Source: Cyanobium sp. NIES-981 (GTDB taxonomy: Bacteria > Cyanobacteriota > Cyanobacteriia > PCC-6307 > Cyanobiaceae). Taken from it: a stretch of 64,000 bases of DNA. Below the pieces are notes generated by a model, which made no database searches, was not told the origin of the DNA, and saw only the letters and a list, made by a program, of their open reading frames with translations. The position numbers and the translations under genes are program-made. Shown here in pieces: positions 22,527 to 64,000 of the stretch; the first letter of the stretch is position 1, and each line of letters starts with the position of its first letter. Location: contig CAMDVN010000004.1 in NCBI GenBank assembly GCA_945877595.1, positions 1 through 64,000 of the forward strand, read 5' to 3'.

Positions 22527-22613
22527 GGGCCTCGACGATGGATTGGCGGGCTTGGGAGGCAAGAGGCTGGAAATGGCCCGGGCAGCAACTGGGGTAAGTC
22601 TCGCGGGCTGAGG

Positions 22614-22699
22614 GCCGCATTGGCGAGGGCTCCATTGGCGAGGCTGCATTGGGGAGGCTGCAATGGGGAAGCTGCATTGGCGAGACTCCATTGGCGAGG
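22614..22699. repeat. 14-15-bp tandem repeat array, about six units
   Basis: Units related to gctgcattggcgagg begin at 22614, 22629, 22644, 22658, 22672 and 22686, with substitutions. The array lies between the start of the membrane-fusion gene and ychF. On the minus strand it would add a repetitive N-terminus (SPMQPRQWSPRQC) to the former. Confidence 0.88.
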
Positions 22700-38891: not shown

Positions 38892-39573
38892 GCTGCAGCG
38901 TCACCACTTCGGTGGCTCCATAGCGGCGCCGATCCTGGAGTTCAAATCCTGGCGGCACGTCAGGAACCCCGCTGCGGGCGCATTCCCAGAGCAGCAGCCC
39001 ATCGGGATTCAGCCAATCTCCAGCCCGCACCGCCAAGGTGAGCGGTTCATACAGACCTGCGGCATAGGGGGGATCCAGATAAATCAAATCAAAACCATCG
39101 GCGCGTCCAGCCGGCCCAGCATCGGAATGGTGCTCAAGAGCCTTGCGTTGAAGGCCAGCACGTTCAAGCTCCTTGAGCTCAAGGGTATTGCGCTCAAGGA
39201 GCTTCTGCTGAAGTCCATTCCGCTGAAGCCTTGGCTTGTTCTGGCTCGGTCCAGACAGCCACTGCTGGGCGTCTTGATGATCAAGGCGCCATTCCCCTGG
39301 ATCATGGAGCCCTGAGGCCACGGCAGCCAGGTTGGCCCGGGCCACTTGGGCGATGCGACGGTCCTGCTCGACGGCGATCACCAGCGAGGCGCCGTGCTGC
39401 AGAGCCTCGCAGGCCATGACCCCACTACCGCTGCAGAGATCCAGCCAGCGGCAACCGCTCAGCCGCGGGGCCAAACGATTGAACACCGCCAGCCTCACCC
39501 GAGCCGCCGTTGGACGGGCCCGATCCCCGGGCGGGCTCTGCAATTTGCGGCCACCACTGAGCCGCAGGCTCAT
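38842..39573 (-). CDS. rsmD: 16S rRNA (guanine(966)-N(2))-methyltransferase RsmD
   Basis: Methylates G966 of 16S rRNA. The 243-residue protein has [20 protein letters not shown], motif [21 protein letters not shown], motif [11 protein letters not shown], and the catalytic DPPY motif ([18 protein letters not shown]). Between DAQQWLSG and [11 protein letters not shown] lies an extra segment of about 45 residues dominated by a five-residue repeat. The methylase core is otherwise complete. It follows hisH by 10 bp and overlaps petG by 50 bp. Confidence 0.9.
39133..39237 (-). repeat. Seven-unit 15-bp repeat inserted in rsmD
   Basis: Seven consecutive 15-bp units (starts 39133, 39148, 39163, 39178, 39193, 39208, 39223), each resembling ctcaagnnnnttnng. 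On the coding strand they give pentads [30 protein letters not shown] and RKALE, with Leu at a fixed place in each. Confidence 0.88.
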
Positions 39574-39583
39574 GGCTTCGGAC

Positions 39584-40231
39584 TCATGACTTCGGACGCT
39601 GGGCGCCCAGCCAGCCCAGCCAGCGCCGCAGCATCACCTCACCACTGGGGCCCGACTTCTCAGGATGGAATTGGCAGGCGCCAATGGCTCCTTGCCACAC
39701 TGCAGCGGCCACACGGTGTCCGGCAAAGGCCACTTCGGCCGTGGTGCAGCGTGGATCGGTGGGCTCAGCGGCGTAGGAATGCACGAAATACATCCAGGCC
39801 TCGACACTGGCATTGGGCAGCAGCGGACTCGGTGTCGCAGGGATTAGAGGCTCCCAGCCCATGTGGGGGATGGGATCACCCACCCGGCGGGGCAGAGCCC
39901 TCACCCGACCCGCAAGGATGCCAAGTCCTTCAGCCTGCCCCTCATCGCTGGCCTCAAACAACAATTGCAAGCCCAGGCATATGCCGAGAAGAGGCTCTCC
40001 AGCGGAGCACCACTGACGCAGCGGCTCGACCAATTCGGCCCCATGCAGCTGCTCCATGGCTGGATCAAACGCTCCAACCCCAGGCAGTACCAGGGCATCA
40101 CAGCCCTCGAATGCCGCCGGTGAAGCCACGGGAACCACTTGGGCACCCAGTCGTTCAAAGGCGCGCTGCACCGAGTGCAGGTTGCCCATGCCGTAGTCAA
40201 TGAGACCGATGCGGATGCTGGTGGTGCACAG
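39584..40231 (-). CDS. hisH: Imidazole glycerol phosphate synthase, glutaminase subunit HisH
   Basis: Provides ammonia for HisF in histidine synthesis. The triad is visible: nucleophile Cys in LLGICLGLQLLFEASD, and His/Glu in CQFHPEKSGPSG. The conserved N-terminus RIGLIDYGMGNLHSVQRAFE extends upstream of the first ATG (40189), yet no ATG, GTG or TTG exists in frame before it. A CTG at 40231, preceded by GAGG about nine bases upstream, is proposed; it gives 215 residues starting with CTTSIRIGLIDYG after the initiator. It lies 29 bp after trxA and 10 bp before rsmD. Confidence 0.88.
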   Translation of the reverse strand: MCTTSIRIGLIDYGMGNLHSVQRAFERLGAQVVPVASPAAFEGCDALVLPGVGAFDPAMEQLHGAELVEPLRQWCSAGEPLLGICLGLQLLFEASDEGQAEGLGILAGRVRALPRRVGDPIPHMGWEPLIPATPSPLLPNASVEAWMYFVHSYAAEPTDPRCTTAEVAFAGHRVAAAVWQGAIGACQFHPEKSGPSGEVMLRRWLGWLGAQRPKS

Positions 40232-49549: not shown

Positions 49550-49743
49550 GTATTGGCCGCAGAGATAAATTGGAAAAGATACGATCACAAAGCCAAGGAA
49601 TCAATCGCATCGACAGCCGACAGCCGACAGCAATGATCTCCGAGGATTAGATCCGACAATCAGCCCCTGCAATTAATGCTTGTAATTGATGCCTGCAATT
49701 AATACCTTTAATTAATGCCCTCAATCCAATCGGGCAATCAAAG
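49550..49743. repeat. AT-rich intergenic region with 13-bp tandem repeat
   Basis: Four 13-bp units occupy 49668-49719 (tgcaattaatgct, tgtaattgatgcc, tgcaattaatacc, tttaattaatgcc). A small cgacagc triplication lies near 49613. No gene is seen. The AT content stands out from the surrounding GC-rich sequence. Confidence 0.85.
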
Positions 49744-50310
49744 TCAGTCATCAAAATCGGGCATTTCAACACGTAGATCCCAATGACCAGCGGGCAGATC
49801 CACGGCTGAGCTTCTGCCCTTTGCAACGACAGATCGCGTCAACAGGTCAATCCTGTAGGTGCCCAGCATGTCGGGATTGATCAGCCGTAAAGCAATGCCT
49901 ACCGGTGCGTCAGCCCCATGCCGCAGCGGTTCAGCCAGAGTGACAACCAATCGATCACTGCCAACACCGCTGCGCACCGAGATCGCCGCAGGAATCGTGC
50001 GCTGACAGCGGTGAATCTGTCTTAATTCAACACCTCTGACCGCAAGTCGGCAAAGCGTGACAGCACGAGGGTCTGGATTGAGGCTAAAAGCGGGTGCAAA
50101 CACCACGGTGAACGAAGCAGTGGGCTCCAGCTGGGGGGGCAACACCAGAACAAGCCGGGTATGGGCGCTACGAACCGAAGATTCAGCAAAGGCCGATAGG
50201 TGCGGGGTCGTTTGCGCCATCACAGGCTGAACACCTCCAGAACTGGCAACCAACGCAGTAGCAGCGAGCCCGGCTGCAAGAAAGAGACGGTTGAACGATG
50301 AACTCAGCAT
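49744..50310 (-). CDS. Exported protein of unknown function
   Basis: A 188-residue exported protein. A signal peptide (LFLAAGLAATALVASSGGVQ, cleavage near VMA-QTT) precedes a beta-rich domain: RLVLVLPPQLEPTASFTVVF, then DRLVVTLAEPLRHGADAPVG and NPDMLGTYRIDLLTRS. The layout recalls the cyanobacterial DUF2808 family (exported, PxGTY-type motif), but the match is weak. It lies 11 bp downstream of the broken porin gene on the same strand, so the two were probably co-transcribed. Confidence 0.68.
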   Translation of the reverse strand: MLSSSFNRLFLAAGLAATALVASSGGVQPVMAQTTPHLSAFAESSVRSAHTRLVLVLPPQLEPTASFTVVFAPAFSLNPDPRAVTLCRLAVRGVELRQIHRCQRTIPAAISVRSGVGSDRLVVTLAEPLRHGADAPVGIALRLINPDMLGTYRIDLLTRSVVAKGRSSAVDLPAGHWDLRVEMPDFDD

Positions 50311-50321
50311 GGATTGTCAAT

Positions 50322-52045
50322 TCAGAAACGAAATGTTGCCTTAACAACAAGACCGAAAACACCGAGGGTTGAGCCGTTGCTCGTTGGCAAGACAGCATCA
50401 TTCCAGGAGGAGTCGGATTGGCTGAGCTGACCACGCGGCCTGGGCAACCAGAAGAAGGCCGGCGTCAGCGACAAGGCATCCGTAACTTGAATTTTGTACC
50501 AAGCTTCCATGATCCAGCTGGTGTCATAGGCACCGCTCTGGCCAGTATTATTACTGAATGATGTCAAAAACTTTGGCTGGCCAATAGCAAGCCCAAGAGT
50601 ATTACCCCTCTCCAATACATTCTTCCACTCAAGACCCAACATCCACGATTGAGACTGGGCTCTCAGCAGTGGGCTCTCAGCAGTGGGCTCGCCGCATTGG
50701 GACCACTCAGGCTGTAGTTGTTCTGGTTGAATCCCCACCCAGCAGAAATGACAGGGACCCAATCTGAAGCCTTGGTGGGGTCCCAATAGCCGCTGATGCC
50801 AAAGGATTGAACAGCACCGTTCAGGCCTGGGGCCCAGGTGGGCCATGTCTGGGCTGATAGGGGGGTGATGATCTCATCTTGGCGGGCACCAGCCTGATTG
50901 AAGGTATAGGCCCCAACCATCGCCCAGCCCTGACCCACAAACCCCAGCTGGAGTGTGGTCGCACCACGACTGGCGTCCGTCAGGAGGCCGCCCTCACTGG
51001 GAATCCCGGTGGGAGCTCCCGCTGCGACATAAACGGCACTGGCCACCCAGTAGTGGGACTTGCGCCCCGGCTGCCTCCAACTCAGTCCAAGACCACCACC
51101 TTTGACATCGCTGTAGGCCCCCACCGCCCCGGCGTAGTCAAAAGCGCTGAGAATGCGCTCGCTGGTTCCATAGAGGGAAGGCCAGATCGCGAGCATGTCC
51201 TTCTGGCCAAGGCGTGGGCCGAAGGTCAGGGTGAACGCCGGGCCAAGGGGAAGCCGGTAATAAATTTTGTCGAGAGACAGAATGTTGTTACGGCAATCAC
51301 CCCTCTGCTGACTGCCTGGCGAACAGAATGGTGTGACCCCGTCAAGGCGAGACATGGGGGTAACCAGGTTGCCTCGCAGGCCTGAATAGGCCCCATCCCC
51401 TGCCCGCAGGCGGATCCTCAGCAGATCCTTGCCGCTGAACGAGGAATCGAAATTCAGTTGGATGTCATAGGTCAATGTGAGGGCATCCTGAAGCGAGTAG
51501 AGACTGCCAGTGCCTTCTGGATTGCCAACCCGGTACGTATTGCCGGGTCCAATCTGGTTGCCGTAGTAGTGGAGACCACCGAAATACCAGCGACTCTGAC
51601 CTCGCAACCGGGTTGTGGGCGCAAACCGGGTGGCCTCGAGCTCGCCCACAGCATGCTCAAGGGAGCCCAGCTTGATCTTGAGGGAGCTGATTTCTGGAGC
51701 CAGCTCCAGCAACAGCCGCCTCAGATGGTCAGTAACGAATCCAGGGGAGCGATCCAGACAGATCTGGAGCGCAACCGCAATCTGATAACGCCGAGCTGGG
51801 TCGTCGTCGTCAGCACCGGCAGAATCCGCACTGAGGGGGGAACACCCACCCACCTGCAGGACCTGCCGCGCCAGAGGCTCCAACGCCGACATCGGCAGGC
51901 CAGAAGCATGGCTAACTTCGGTGGCCTTAGGCCTCGAGAGACCTTTGTCAGTCAGATCATCCGAAGCCGAAGCGGGTGCAACCAGCAAAAACAAACTTGC
52001 CAAGCCAGATCCAGCGAAGAAACGACAGATCAATGGCATGAGCAA
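50322..52045 (-). pseudogene. Outer-membrane porin (cyanobacterial SLH/OprB type), frameshifted
   Basis: Porin of the family often called iron uptake porin: signal peptide (FFAGSGLASLFLLVAPASAS), a degraded S-layer-homology region, a coiled-coil linker (ISSLKIKLGSLEHAVGELEA) and a long beta-barrel (RLRGQSRWYFGGLHYYGNQI onward). The frame starting at 52045 ends early at 50663, yet the barrel continues in another frame (SQSWMLGLEWKNVLERGNTL) to the C-terminal VFGLVVKATFRF with terminal Phe. A 14-bp tandem duplication at 50656-50690 causes the shift; removing one unit restores a 569-residue ORF. As written, the last strands and the aromatic end signal are lost. Confidence 0.87.
50656..50690. repeat. 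14-bp tandem duplication that breaks the porin gene
   Basis: Unit tgggctctcagcag occurs at 50656-50669 and 50670-50683, followed by the first seven bases of a third copy. Because 14 is not a multiple of 3, the second copy shifts the frame and creates an early stop at 50663-50665. Confidence 0.95.
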
Positions 52046-52199
52046 ACCAAAACTCTTAAATTCATCAACTTAATACAAAAGTATTGCAGCTAAAAACAAA
52101 ATACCTTAAACTCTATGACAGAGTTTCCACCGCCACAAGCCGCAAATGCTGAGCTACTGCTTCACACGCACAAACAGCCTCAAGCAAGCACTTGGCTCC

Positions 52200-54620
52200 A
52201 TGGAAGGAAAAAGCAGAGGTCTTGGGATTGGGTCATTGGCACTTGGATTGCTGCTCGCCGCCCCCTGGCCAGCCTGGGGAGAGGTTCAACAACCGACCTG
52301 GGAATTACGGATCATTCACACATCTGACCAGGAGGCCGGCAAAAAGGCCCTGCTTGACATTCCCGGGATGATCGCCGTAATGGATCAACTTGACCGATTA
52401 CCCTATCCCAACACCCTCAAGGTGACCTCCGGTGATCTATTCATTGCCGGCCCATTCATGAATGCCAGCCAGTATCTTTATACCAACACTGCAGATTATC
52501 CCAGCAAGAAGCCAAATCAAAACACCCTCGAGCCCCTGGCCATGCGAGCTGGCCTTGCCGACATCATCATCAACAACAACCTCGGCTGGCAGGCGGCAGT
52601 CATCGGGAACCACGAATTTGACGGCATCAGCCAAACTGGTGGGGTGCTCAACGAGGGAAACTTTTTTCAACTGATTGGCCGGAATCCCAACCTGCAGAAC
52701 TATGACGGCAAGGGAATCGGATCCAACGCCAAAACCTATAAACAGGCCGGTGCCGGCATTGGCAAAGAAGGGTATCCCGGGGCAAACTTTCCCTATTTAT
52801 CAGTCAATCTGAATCTCGACTCCTTCAAAGCCAACATCAAGGGTGAAAGCATCTTCAAGGCCTACGGTCTCACAGATGCAAGGCAAACTCCCAAACAAGC
52901 CTCAGCCAACACATTGGCCCACTCCAGTGTGGTCTTGGTTGGAGGCACCAAGGTGGGGATCATCGGTGCCACGACGCCGTTCCTCCCCGACATCGTGGGA
53001 GGGATTGAGCCACACAACATGGTGGCCGGCAGCTACCGCACCAAAGAAACAAGCCCCACTGAGCAGGCAGCAGCCCTCAAGCCATTGATCAGCCGTGAGG
53101 TGGAAGCCCTGCAGAAACAGGGGATCAACAAGATCGTGCTGCTCACGCACTTGCAGGAGAGCGCCGTCGACGAAGCATTGACGCGTCAACTCGTTGATGC
53201 CGACATAGGGGTCGATGTGGTGATCGGGGGCGGATCCCACAAGGTGATGGGCCCGACCGACGGTGCCCAGCGCGGCATGTTGCGTGGCCTTGACCAGAGT
53301 TCAGTGATTGATCAGGAGGCAAAACAACGCCAAACCGTTCAACCCGCTCTGATTCCCTATCCGATGACCTTCATCGGCAAGGGGAACAAAGCCAAGGCCT
53401 ACTACGTCAATGGAGGTTCAAACTATGAATACTTGAACCAGTTGGTTGTGCGCTTTGACACCAAAGGCCAGGTCGTGGGTCACGATGCCAACAACAGCCG
53501 TCCCTGGAAAACAGATACAACCGGCGTCATTGGCATGCTAGGCAAGCAAGAATGGCAAAAATTGCCAGCAGTACAGCAACGCCAACAGATACAAAATCAC
53601 ATTCTGACCCAAAGCCAAAACCCTGCCTATCGCAACGCCATTGCAACGCTAAAATCCGTAGAAGGCTATATCAACAGCCTTGATCGCTTGCAATACGGTC
53701 AAACAAATGTATGGCTCAATGGCAGCAATGCCGACGTGCGCTCCAAGGAAACCAACTTGGGCAATCTCGTAGCAGACTCCCTGCTTTGGTACGGCCAGGA
53801 ATTGCATCGAAGCAACCCCGCACTGGCCGATATCCGCTCCATTGATGTGGCCTTCATCAACGGTGGTGGCATCCGTGACATGATCGGTACCGAGCAGGTG
53901 ATGCCCGACGAAACTGTGCATCGAGATCCGCCAGAAGCCAATGCAATACTAGGAAAACAAGCTGGCGAGATTTCCAAGCTGGATGTCGTCAATAGTCTGC
54001 GTTTTGACAATTCCATCACCGTTGGCACCATCACTTCAGCCCAGCTCAAACGCTCGGCTGAAGCGATGGTGGCCGAGGTGCGCCATGGAGGTTTTGGTCA
54101 AATCTCGGGCTTCCGCTTCCGCTATGACCCCAGCAGGCCCCGCGGTGAGCGAGTTCTCGAGATGGAGCTCACGAAGCCCAAGCGACTGGCCGATGGCCGG
54201 GTCGATGGCCGCACCCAAGAACAAGATGTCATCAGGTCGCTGGTGCGCCAGGGCAAGGTGGTCAATCCCAACGAAACACTGGGCTTGGTCACCATCACTT
54301 ACCTCGCCGAAGGCGGCGATGGCCAGGGCGGAGCCAAGCTCACCCAAAACATGAACCATGCGCACTGGATCGGCATAGCCGGGGCTGCACCGATCTGGAC
54401 AGCCGCAGGCCAAGCTGTTCCCAAACTTCTGACCCAAGCCGAGGCTCCGCCAGCCCTCAATTCAGGACTTCAACGACGTGAACTGGGCTTTGGCTCCTAC
54501 CGCGAAGCCCTTGGGGCCTACCTGGAGGCCAACCACGGGGAAGGGAAACCCAATCCAATCCGCACTCCAGATCCAAGTCCTAACAAAACAATTCGGATCA
54601 CCAACACGTTGGCCAAATGA
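52200..54620 (+). CDS. Exported 5'-nucleotidase-type metallophosphatase
   Basis: An exported two-domain enzyme of about 806 residues related to bacterial 5'-nucleotidase/2',3'-cyclic phosphodiesterase. Signal peptide GIGSLALGLLLAAPWPAWG. The metallophosphatase domain has LRIIHTSDQEAGKKALLDIP (Asp with Glu where many members have DxH), LKVTSGDLFIAGPFMN, AVIGNHEFDG, LLTHLQES and GVDVVIGGGSH. The C-terminal substrate domain has NLGNLVADSLLWYGQEL, AFINGGGIRDMIG and VNSLRFDNSITVGTITSAQL, as in 5'-nucleotidases. ATG 52200 directly precedes the signal peptide; ATG 52146 would extend it. Divergent from the porin. Substrate range is inferred. Confidence 0.87.
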   Translation: MEGKSRGLGIGSLALGLLLAAPWPAWGEVQQPTWELRIIHTSDQEAGKKALLDIPGMIAVMDQLDRLPYPNTLKVTSGDLFIAGPFMNASQYLYTNTADYPSKKPNQNTLEPLAMRAGLADIIINNNLGWQAAVIGNHEFDGISQTGGVLNEGNFFQLIGRNPNLQNYDGKGIGSNAKTYKQAGAGIGKEGYPGANFPYLSVNLNLDSFKANIKGESIFKAYGLTDARQTPKQASANTLAHSSVVLVGGTKVGIIGATTPFLPDIVGGIEPHNMVAGSYRTKETSPTEQAAALKPLISREVEALQKQGINKIVLLTHLQESAVDEALTRQLVDADIGVDVVIGGGSHKVMGPTDGAQRGMLRGLDQSSVIDQEAKQRQTVQPALIPYPMTFIGKGNKAKAYYVNGGSNYEYLNQLVVRFDTKGQVVGHDANNSRPWKTDTTGVIGMLGKQEWQKLPAVQQRQQIQNHILTQSQNPAYRNAIATLKSVEGYINSLDRLQYGQTNVWLNGSNADVRSKETNLGNLVADSLLWYGQELHRSNPALADIRSIDVAFINGGGIRDMIGTEQVMPDETVHRDPPEANAILGKQAGEISKLDVVNSLRFDNSITVGTITSAQLKRSAEAMVAEVRHGGFGQISGFRFRYDPSRPRGERVLEMELTKPKRLADGRVDGRTQEQDVIRSLVRQGKVVNPNETLGLVTITYLAEGGDGQGGAKLTQNMNHAHWIGIAGAAPIWTAAGQAVPKLLTQAEAPPALNSGLQRRELGFGSYREALGAYLEANHGEGKPNPIRTPDPSPNKTIRITNTLAK

Positions 54621-54829: not shown

Positions 54830-57013
54830 ATGACACTTTCCCGTGCCCTCCTGCGGCGCCTTTGGCCCCAACCCATCGGCAACCAGTGCTTGCTGATGCT
54901 GGGTGCCGGCGTCCTGTTTGGGCTGCTGGCGCCGGCCCAGACCCCCTGGCTCCAACCCCTGGCCACCATTTTTCTGCAGGCCTCGCAGATCGTGGTGATG
55001 CCTTTTTTAATTTGCGAGTTGATCGTGGGCTTCGGCCGGCTGCGTCCGGGTTCGCTGGGTGAGCTGGCCCGACGGGGTGGCGTGGTGCTGATGGGGCTGT
55101 GGATTGCCGCATCCGTCGTCGTGGTGATGCTTCCACTGGCCTTACCGCCGCTGGTGACCTCCGAATTTTTTGACACAGGCCTGTTTGAAACCAACGAGCC
55201 CACCGACCTGCTAACCACTTACCTGCCGAACAACAACTTTGGAGCCCTTGCCGGGGCCAATTTTCCTGCCGTGGTGCTGTTCAGTTGCCTGCTGGGCATC
55301 TTGCTGCAAGGCATCGACGAACGCGACCATCTGCTAGCTCCCTTGGGGGTCATGCGCACAGTGTTCGGCAAGCTCAACAGCCTGGTGGTTCGCCTGATTC
55401 CCTTTGGAATCTTTGCACTGATCGCCCTCAATGTGGCCAAGCTCAATGTGGAGCAGCTGATCCGAATCCAGGGCTTCTTGGCCCTGAGTGTGATTGCCTT
55501 CCTGGTCTTGAGCGTGGGGTGCACCGTGGCAGTGCTGGCCCTCACCCCCCTCAGCCCCCTGGTGCTCTGGCGGATTGTGCGGGGCCCCCTCGCCCTCACC
55601 GCCAGCAGCGCCAACCTGCTGATTGCCCTGCCCATGCTGGTCAGAAACCTTCAAGACGAGCTGCCCAGTCAGCTGGGGCCACGTGCCAACCCGGCGCGGC
55701 TCGCCGACATGGGTGAAGAACTGGCTCCGCTGGTGTCGCTTGGCTTTGCCCTACCCAACCTGGGCCAGGTGGCGGCCTTGATTTTCATACCCTTTTCGGC
55801 CTGGTATGTGGATCGGGCCCTCGAGCCAGCCAACACCGCAGCCATGTTGCTCAGTGCCATACCCACATCGGTGTCGGGTCTCAAGGCGGTGATCCGACAG
55901 GAACTGCTCCATTTGGGCCTGCCGATCGATCTGCTGCAACTCGTCTATATCAACGGCGAATGGGTCTATCGCCTGGAGAAAGTGCTCTCCCTTGAGGGGC
56001 TGGTGGTGCTGGCCGTGCTCGTGTATGCCCGCGGGGTGGGGGCCTGGCAGCCCAAGCCCCTGAAGGCCCTGACCGGGCTGAGCCTGGCCGTGGCCCTGGG
56101 CACGGGCCTGGGCTGGGGAAGCCGGATCAGCCTGGCAACCGCCCTGGAGGGCTCGTACCGCAACGACCAACGCCTGCTGGCCTTGACCACGGCACGCAGT
56201 GGTCGGGAGCCGATCGAGATGCGTGGCGTGCAGACAGCCCAGCCGGTGAGTCTCTCCGCCATCAAAGCCCGCGGCACGCTGCGGGTGGGCCTGCGTTCCG
56301 ACGGTCTGCCCTGGGCCTACCGAAACAACCATGGCGATCTGGTTGGTTTTGATGTGGACCTGCTCAAGAGCCTGGCGACCAACCTGGGTGTGCTCCTGCA
56401 GCTGCAGGAGGCACCGATAGCCAAGCTGGAGGCTCGGCTCTCCCTGGGCCAGCTTGATTTGGTCGCCGGGGGCATCCAGACGAGTCCCGGCCGAGCGATT
56501 CGCCATGAACTGAGCCGCAGTTACCTCACCGTGAACCTTGGCCTGGTCGTTGCTGATCAGAAGGTCAAGGCCTTGCAGGGTGGTGCGGTTCACCCCCAGC
56601 TCCAACCGATCCGATTGGCGGTGAGGGATGCCGAAATGATCAGCCCCGGGCTGGAGAGTCAGATCGCCAGGCGCCTTGGCGACGGCCGCAACAGGGCACG
56701 GGTGGAATTCATCCCGATTGATTCCAAGGATGAGTTCTTCTCAAAGGCGGGCCAACAACGCTTCGACGGTTTGTTGACACCCGCTGAATCGGGTGCATCC
56801 TGGGCCGTGCTGAATCCGGGCACCTCGCTGGTGACACCCTTTAGGGACGACCTCAGCAACGAACTCGTGCTGATGATCGGGGGCCGAGATGCCACCTTTC
56901 GGCGTTACCTCAATGGTTGGCTGGCTCGGGAACAGGCCCAGGGCCGGATCGACGAACTCTTCAATTACTGGATTCTGATGAAGGATGAAGCGGCCCCAGC
57001 GCTGCCCGGCTGA
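54830..57013 (+). CDS. DAACS-type symporter fused to periplasmic binding-protein domain
   Basis: A 727-residue fusion. Residues 1-440 resemble the dicarboxylate/amino acid:cation symporter family: hydrophobic helices, IVVMPFLICELIVGFGRL, LPNNNFGALAGANFPAVVLF, VRLIPFGIFALIALNVAKLN, and the Ser-rich re-entrant loop LTASSANLLIALPMLVRNL. Residues 474-727 form a solute-binding protein family 3 domain: IKARGTLRVGLRSDGLPWAY, GDLVGFDVDLLKSLATNLG, LGQLDLVAGGIQTSPGR. The binding domain would face the periplasm. The ligand is probably an amino or dicarboxylic acid. The stop region overlaps the GH57 gene by 53 bp. Confidence 0.85.
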   Translation: MTLSRALLRRLWPQPIGNQCLLMLGAGVLFGLLAPAQTPWLQPLATIFLQASQIVVMPFLICELIVGFGRLRPGSLGELARRGGVVLMGLWIAASVVVVMLPLALPPLVTSEFFDTGLFETNEPTDLLTTYLPNNNFGALAGANFPAVVLFSCLLGILLQGIDERDHLLAPLGVMRTVFGKLNSLVVRLIPFGIFALIALNVAKLNVEQLIRIQGFLALSVIAFLVLSVGCTVAVLALTPLSPLVLWRIVRGPLALTASSANLLIALPMLVRNLQDELPSQLGPRANPARLADMGEELAPLVSLGFALPNLGQVAALIFIPFSAWYVDRALEPANTAAMLLSAIPTSVSGLKAVIRQELLHLGLPIDLLQLVYINGEWVYRLEKVLSLEGLVVLAVLVYARGVGAWQPKPLKALTGLSLAVALGTGLGWGSRISLATALEGSYRNDQRLLALTTARSGREPIEMRGVQTAQPVSLSAIKARGTLRVGLRSDGLPWAYRNNHGDLVGFDVDLLKSLATNLGVLLQLQEAPIAKLEARLSLGQLDLVAGGIQTSPGRAIRHELSRSYLTVNLGLVVADQKVKALQGGAVHPQLQPIRLAVRDAEMISPGLESQIARRLGDGRNRARVEFIPIDSKDEFFSKAGQQRFDGLLTPAESGASWAVLNPGTSLVTPFRDDLSNELVLMIGGRDATFRRYLNGWLAREQAQGRIDELFNYWILMKDEAAPALPG

Positions 57014-60299: not shown

Positions 60300-60329
60300 G
60301 ACAAACAACAAAGCAGCTCAGCAGCCATG

Positions 60330-60363
60330 CTCCTCGACAGCCATCGCTCCTCGACAGCCATCG
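60330..60363. repeat. 17-bp tandem duplication
   Basis: ctcctcgacagccatcg occurs twice in direct succession (60330 and 60347), in the leader between guanine deaminase and nucleoside hydrolase. Confidence 0.9.
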
Positions 60364-61704: not shown

Positions 61705-63348
61705 ATGGCCCGAGATCCCGGCCGCGTTCTGATTTTCGATACCACCCTGCGCGATGGCGAGCAGTCGCCTGGTGCCAGCCTCAACCTCGAGGAGAAGCTG
61801 GCAATCGCCCAGCAGCTGGCACGGCTGCAGGTCGACATCATCGAAGCAGGTTTCCCCTACGCCAGCCCCGGCGATTTCAATGCCGTGCAGCGCATCGCTG
61901 CCTCCGTGGGCACCGCCGACGGCCCAGTGATCTGCGGCCTGGCCCGCGCCGCGGCCGGCGACATCAAAGCCTGCGCCGAGGCGGTGGGCCCGGCAGCCCA
62001 CAAGCGCATCCACACCTTCATCGCCACCAGCGACATTCACCTCGAGCACAAGCTGCGTAAGAGCCGCTCCGAGGTGCTGGCGATCACCGCCGAGATGGTG
62101 GCCTATGCGCGATCCCTGGTCGACGACGTCGAATTTTCCTGCGAAGACGCCGGCCGCAGTGATCCGGAGTTCATGCACCAGGTGATCGAAGCCGCTATCG
62201 CAGCCGGTGCCACCACGATCAACATCCCCGACACGGTGGGGTACGCCACTCCGGCCGAATTCGGTGGATTGATCGCCGGCATCAACGCCCACGTTCCAAA
62301 CATCGAGCAGGCCGTGATCTCGGTGCACGGCCACAATGACCTGGGTTTGGCAGTCGCCAACTTCTTAGAAGCAGTCAAAAATGGCGCTCGCCAGCTCGAA
62401 TGCACGATCAACGGCATCGGCGAACGGGCCGGCAACGCCTCGCTCGAGGAGCTGGTCATGGCTCTGCACGTGCGCCGCAGCTACTTCAATCCCTTTCTGG
62501 GACGCCCAGCCGAGAGCATCGAGCCGCTCACGGGGGTTCGCACCGAGGAGATCACCAAGACTTCGCGCCTGGTGAGCAACCTCACCGGCATGGCCGTGCA
62601 GCCCAACAAGGCCATCGTGGGTGCCAACGCCTTTGCCCATGAGAGCGGCATCCACCAAGACGGGGTCCTCAAAAACCGCCTCACCTACGAAATCATTGAC
62701 GCCCGCACGGTGGGCTTGGCCGACAACCGCATTTCCCTGGGCAAGCTGAGCGGCCGCAGCGCCTTTCGGGCCCGGCTAGAGGAACTGGGCTACACCCTCG
62801 AGCGCGACGTCCTCGACGACGCCTTTGCACGCTTCAAGGAGCTGGCCGACCGCAAGCGCGAAATTGGCGACCGTGACCTCGAAGCCATTGTCAGCGAGCA
62901 GGTGCAGCAGCACGATGTGGCCCATTACGTCCTCAAGAGCGTGCAGGTGAGCTGCGGCACGGGCCTGCAGCCCACCGCCACGGTCACCCTGTGCTTTGGC
63001 GACGGCACCGAGCGCACCGAAGCGGCAATTGGCACCGGACCAGTGGATGCGGTCTGCCAGGCCCTTAACAACCTGGCCCAGGTGCCCAACGACCTGGTTG
63101 AGTTTTCGGTCAAGAGCGTCACCGAGGGCATCGATGCGATGGGCGACGTCACGATCAGGCTGCGGGCCAATGGGGTGCTGTACTCAGGCCACTCGGCCAA
63201 CACCGACATCGTGGTGGCCGCGGCCCAAGCTTTCGTCAACGCCCTCAACCGCTTGGTGACAGGCGGCCGTCAGCTGCCCCTGCATCCGCAAAAGACACCC
63301 CTGCCGGCCCTGGGTGACCTGCCCCTGGCCGAGCGCCCACGGGTATGA
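61705..63348 (+). CDS. leuA: 2-isopropylmalate synthase
   Basis: Condenses acetyl-CoA with 2-oxoisovalerate, the first step of leucine synthesis. The 547-residue protein starts [20 protein letters not shown], has [28 protein letters not shown], the metal motif [45 protein letters not shown], and a C-terminal LeuA allosteric domain ([20 protein letters not shown]) for leucine feedback. Start ATG 61705. The stop is 8 bp before the next gene. Confidence 0.97.
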
Positions 63349-63355
63349 AACGGGT

Positions 63356-64000
63356 ATGAAAGAACAGTCCACCCCGGTGGCCACGGCCCTGCAGCTGAGT
63401 GTGCTGTTGCTGCTGGCCCTAGCGATGCTGGTGCCGCTGCTCTGGCTGGTGAGCACCTCGCTCAAGGGTCCGGCTGAAAATATTTTCACTAGCCCGCCAG
63501 CGCTGCTGCCAACTCAACCCAGCCTGGAGGCCTACGGACGCCTGTTTTCAGGCAGTCCCATGGGGACTTACCTGCTCAACAGCACGATTGTGAGCAGCCT
63601 GGCGGTGTTGGCCAACCTGCTGTTTTGCTCGCTGGCGGCCTATCCACTGGCGCGGCTGCGCTTTGCCGGTCGCGGTCTGGTGCTGGCCCTGGTGGTGGCC
63701 ACGATTCTGATCCCGTTTCAGGTGGTGATGATCCCGCTGTACCTGCTGATGGTCCAGATCGGCCTGCGCAACACCTTGGCGGCGCTGATCATTCCCCAAG
63801 CCGCCACCGCCTTTGGGATTTTTCTGCTGCGCCAGAGCTTTGTGGGGGTGCCGGTGGAGCTCGAGGAGGCGGCCCGATGCGACGGCTGCAGCCCAGTGGG
63901 TGAATGGTGGAACGTGATGATCCCAGCCGCCAAGGCAGACCTGATCACCCTGGCGATGTTTGTGTTTATCGGCACCTGGAGCGACTTCCTCTGGCCCCTG
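63356..64000 (+). CDS. ABC transporter permease (sugar type, MalG-like), partial
   Basis: Fragment of an inner-membrane permease of carbohydrate ABC importers, truncated by the window end at residue 215. It has an N-terminal helix (LQLSVLLLLALAMLVPLLWL), STSLKGPAENIF, FSGSPMGTYLLNSTIVSSLA, further helices, and the EAA loop VELEEAARCDGCSPVGEWWN for contact with the ATPase. Other subunits are presumably beyond the window. It begins 8 bp after leuA; an 11-bp duplication (cgggtatgaaa) covers the junction. Confidence 0.9.
   Translation, partial: MKEQSTPVATALQLSVLLLLALAMLVPLLWLVSTSLKGPAENIFTSPPALLPTQPSLEAYGRLFSGSPMGTYLLNSTIVSSLAVLANLLFCSLAAYPLARLRFAGRGLVLALVVATILIPFQVVMIPLYLLMVQIGLRNTLAALIIPQAATAFGIFLLRQSFVGVPVELEEAARCDGCSPVGEWWNVMIPAAKADLITLAMFVFIGTWSDFLWPL

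Follow-up and report, generated by a model that had tools for sequence, protein, structure and literature searches.

A 14-bp tandem duplication interrupts an accessory SomA/OprB-type porin gene in Cyanobium sp. NIES-981

The window analyzed here, 64,000 nucleotides of a Cyanobium sp. NIES-981 contig, carries on its minus strand a porin gene (from a TTG at 52045, with an in-frame ATG at 52039, to 50322) whose reading frame is interrupted by a 14-bp tandem duplication. We regard this gene, with good confidence, as a recent loss-of-function allele of an accessory SomA/OprB-type porin that goes back to this one duplication and is potentially revertible. A preliminary description of the locus had offered three readings, namely a phase-variable switch, a recent loss in this strain and an assembly artefact, and recent loss in the lineage fits the evidence best.

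Layout of the interrupted gene

The 5′ part of the gene (50663-52045, minus strand; from the list of open reading frames) encodes a signal peptide, a putative SLH-like N-terminal segment and the first part of the barrel, with a length of 460 aa counted from the TTG or 458 aa from the ATG. Its frame ends at a TGA (50665-50663 on the minus strand) inside the second copy of the repeat. The 3′ part (50322-50669, minus strand) lies in another frame, open from 50873 to 50325, and encodes the OprB C-terminal region with the last residues KATFRF and a terminal Phe. This part has an OprB barrel domain (Pfam OprB; E = 1.3e-11; profile positions 260-359 of 372), scoring 45 bits against a cut-off of 22.9. 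The 5′ part was not recognized by Pfam; orthologues span the 5′ and 3′ parts in a single frame. When one copy of the repeat unit is counted the frame is restored to 1710 bp, and the 569 codons previously given for it are correct with the TTG start (567 codons from the ATG). As the gene stands, no single frame runs through to the C-terminal aromatic residue, with the break at 50663 and the Phe in a different frame. The locus is a broken, pseudogene-like relative of SomA-type OprB porins and not a working member of that family.

The N-terminal segment sits where related porins have their SLH domain, and a profile built on related porins hit solved SLH proteins; no Pfam SLH match was obtained for the segment itself. 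The AlphaFold prediction for a related porin, built from 12 sequences, was unusable (mean pLDDT 30.7). At about 50%, the GC content of the 3′ part (50322-50644) is below that of both the 5′ part (about 60%) and the genome as a whole (63%).

The duplication occupies 50656-50690. The unit tgggctctcagcag is present twice with zero mismatches (50656-50669 and 50670-50683), and the match extends 7 bp further into a partial third copy (50684-50690), giving 2.5 perfect copies (TRF score 71), in agreement with the preliminary description. Seven exact tandem units of at least 10 bp were found in the window compared to a mean of about 0.4 expected from 20 third-order Markov shuffles, indicating that the porin repeat is not due to chance. 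No further copy of the unit was detected elsewhere in the genome with up to 3 mismatches allowed, which indicates a local duplication and rules out a dispersed repeat family. An exact-pattern scan of viral contigs returned no match. The unit contains a TGA in each reading frame, and the frame entering the array stops in copy 2, so that arrays of two or more copies are all off and the gene is open with a single copy only.

A −1 ribosomal shift that still yields a full-length porin was considered, as the required shift is −1 and the two porin frames overlap by about 200 nt. However, no X XXY YYZ heptamer is present in the zero frame of the overlap (there are two, both out of phase), and the orthologues have no comparable arrangement. 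Recoding was rejected on the lack of an in-phase slippery site in the frame overlap and is extremely improbable.

Orthologues and the ancestral state

Orthologues of the porin were identified in six genomes (G226, G162, G224, G227, G218 and G066), all from another genus of the family, with matches at E = 1e-94 or better and the next best match at about 1e-82. The 5′ part shows 45-51% identity to the six; for the 3′ part, identity to orthologues is 51-55% (92-115 residues compared). All six have one open frame across the junction, and five of them align gap-free at the junction when one copy is counted, the sixth being more divergent. The junction reads WGLSHNVYDHDGAYAASSLLSATSQSWMLG in G162 compared to WGFNQNNYSLSGPNAASPLLRA followed by QSQSWMLG in the window, and the pattern held by the five orthologues is AAS-x-LL-x-x-x-SQSWMLG compared to AASPLLRA/QSQSWMLG in the window. 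A repeat at the junction position is absent from all six. A search was also made for orthologues in which a second copy is balanced by a compensating indel, a finding that would have contradicted the earlier account; none occurred among the six. As the six orthologues are open through the junction and five agree with the single-copy length at each residue, this comparison, which had been proposed as a check on copy number, indicates that the single-copy form is the ancestral one and the two-copy form is derived.

DNA and protein searches of five other genomes of the window's genus returned no orthologue, only paralogues with up to 43% identity. A scan of contigs returned only porins at 36-41% identity, a result that names the group and is uninformative for the junction. 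The porins of the genome analyzed here resemble those of Cyanobium and freshwater Synechococcus. At least four other OprB genes with open frames are present in the same genome as the interrupted porin.

The gene neighbourhood was compared with that of the orthologues. An intact gene for an exported DUF2808-like protein (49744-50310, minus strand) lies 12 bp downstream of the porin and is likely co-transcribed with it. The gene directly 3′ of the porin orthologue in G162 has 27% identity (E = 1e-6) to this DUF2808-like gene and a weak DUF2808 match below the cut-off; the occurrence of a DUF2808-like gene after the porin in both the window and G162 supports their orthology. On the other side lies a divergent 5′-nucleotidase family gene (52146-54620, plus strand; Pfam 5_nucleotid_C, E = 7.5e-22). 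A promoter or regulon common to this gene and the porin was considered and rejected. The neighbour was not found next to either the G162 or the G066 orthologue, and a promoter scan gave no signal exceeding chance. Two further features were noted nearby. A 7-bp unit occurring three times and an AT-rich 26-bp repeat are located downstream of the DUF2808-like gene (49611-49725), and a single ORF at 54830-57013 fuses a sodium:dicarboxylate symporter (Pfam SDF) with a family 3 solute-binding domain (SBP_bac_3); this domain pairing looked unusual.

Origin and effect of the duplication

The 7-mer GAGCCCA precedes the duplicated unit and occurs again at its end, 14 bp apart, so that in the single-copy sequence the unit is flanked by a short direct repeat, the arrangement looked for as microhomology. 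The stretch of the gene that was examined (1376 nt) contains two direct-repeat pairs of at least 7 bp with a spacing of 7-20 bp, and the GAGCCCA pair is one of them. Judging from the sequence, the duplication probably arose by slippage between these two 7-mers, an event in replication, or in repair, that would have duplicated the 14 bp once. The resulting frame shift would lead into the TGA in copy 2 and end translation about 110 residues early. The truncated product is without the region of OprB profile positions 260-359 (of 372) and without the C-terminal aromatic residue, both of which are encoded in the displaced frame, and in this respect the loss described earlier is borne out. A product lacking the end of the barrel and the aromatic C-terminus should not be inserted by the outer-membrane protein assembly process, and the assembly of this porin would be expected to fail.

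Loss of the porin would be tolerable given the at least four open OprB genes elsewhere in the genome. In Anabaena, single mutants of related porin genes are viable, with mostly changed salt, metal or envelope-stress tolerance (PMC9705863). The event also appears to be recent, as the 3′ part has kept as much identity to the orthologues (51-55%) as the 5′ part (46-49%) and carries no additional stop or shift, and the copies of the unit do not differ from each other. Identity to the closest orthologues is only about 50%, too low for measuring either the age of the duplication or any relaxed selection.

Exact tandem duplications numbered 20 in 184 kb of this genome compared to 4 in 61 kb of the congener G005 and, for the other genus, 3 in G162 and 1 in G066 (80 kb sampled from each), although these are small, non-random samples and the excess in this genome is an indication only. 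Six of the seven non-triplet tandem duplications in the 184-kb sample are intergenic, lie at gene borders or sit immediately upstream of genes, and the porin is the only gene in the sample interrupted by one. Such a distribution is consistent with a mutational process that acts generally and is then filtered by selection, the porin being a tolerated exception. Within the window, a near-perfect 14-bp tandem duplication at a hisH/rsmD-like border (39569-39597) and a perfect 11-bp tandem duplication at a leuA/ABC-permease-like border (63339-63361) each double a stop/start region and break no gene. Another of the tandem duplications is at 60329-60363. Tandem arrays of imperfect repeats (periods of 14, 20 and 15 bp), mostly non-genic, were also observed (window 22613-22699; L071 8942-9036 and 9140-9228).

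The break could also be an artefact of assembly or binning, in which case the true sequence would be single-copy or the contig would mix strains. The contig (C4) belongs to a fragmented draft of 2.57 Mb in 143 contigs (88.6% complete, 1.66% contamination, GC 63%), and a second assembly of the species was not found. However, the array is about 35 bp, below any current read length, making a mis-assembled copy number unlikely, and the other short tandem duplications of the genome lie at gene borders or in frame, as real sequence would. We consider an artefact unlikely.

Reversibility and comparison with known systems

The preliminary description had suggested that slippage between the copies could switch the porin on and off. 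The part of this suggestion that holds is the reversal itself, as the same slippage could in principle remove the extra copy again, passively and at low frequency. That the extra copy could be lost passively is plausible given the reversible short intragenic duplications known from pneumococcal capsule loci and fission yeast. The part that finds no support is an adaptive switch, with only one perfect extra copy, stops in all frames and no repeat in the orthologues.

An evolved phase-variation locus, in which the repeat would be maintained to turn the porin on and off, e.g., for escape from phages that use it as a receptor, would be consistent with a surface protein gene that has a non-triplet tandem repeat (a 14-bp unit in 2.5 copies) inside its ORF, and a reversible mechanism is known in pneumococcal capsule genes (Waite 2001, 2003, as cited in PMC4022640). 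Against it, the array has 2.5 copies only, the unit has no second locus in the genome, and reversion as given in PMC4022640 is at most about 1e-5 for insertions up to 9 bp. Moreover, the porin is off at any copy number of two or more, no array is present in the six orthologues and at least four other OprB genes are available, all of which argues against such a locus; an evolved switch is distinctly unlikely. Typical contingency loci have many repeat copies and several open states. Copy changes at the porin would not alternate between several open and closed states, the single-copy state alone being open. We also considered a free-living picocyanobacterium in which short tandem duplications arise at a raised rate and the population stays mixed for on and off states of the accessory porin, one 14-bp copy being frequently gained and lost, e.g., under cyanophage selection, and regard this as highly unlikely. 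Nothing in the evidence points to an evolved on/off switch, and the mutation is of an ordinary type.

The preferred reading, a recent and potentially revertible loss, makes the porin a further example of a surface gene lost via a short tandem duplication, and a two-copy repeat alone is no evidence of phase variation. If population reads held both alleles, the locus would provide a simple natural system for reversible porin loss in picocyanobacteria.

Four known systems invite comparison. The porin shares a non-triplet repeat inside a gene for a surface protein with the classic contingency loci, which carry many-copy simple repeats, but its repeat is few-copy, has no alternative in-frame copy numbers and is absent in relatives. 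In the pneumococcal capsule genes cap3A, cap8E and tts, phase variation occurs via spontaneous intragenic sequence duplication (Waite et al., 2001, 2003, via PMC4022640). As these loci are presented in that source, a short tandem duplication in an ORF for a surface feature likewise shifts the frame and can be lost; phase variation there was seen in culture, whereas the porin is known from one assembled allele. The ssp1 gene of fission yeast undergoes microhomology-mediated tandem duplication (Dan et al., 2021, via the review PMC13207564), and the case as reviewed resembles the porin in that short direct repeats flank the unit and the step from one copy to two creates a premature stop. It differs in that the porin is bacterial and the one pointer to its mechanism is the 7-bp repeat pair. 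Finally, SLH-domain SomA/OprB-type porins of cyanobacteria include SomA and SomB of Synechocystis and Alr4550 and its relatives of Anabaena (PMC9705863). The porin of the window differs from these in belonging to a divergent, sporadic subfamily and in being interrupted by a frameshift, and is like them in its OprB C-terminal region, its putative SLH-like N-terminal segment, its aromatic C-terminus and the presence of several paralogues per genome.
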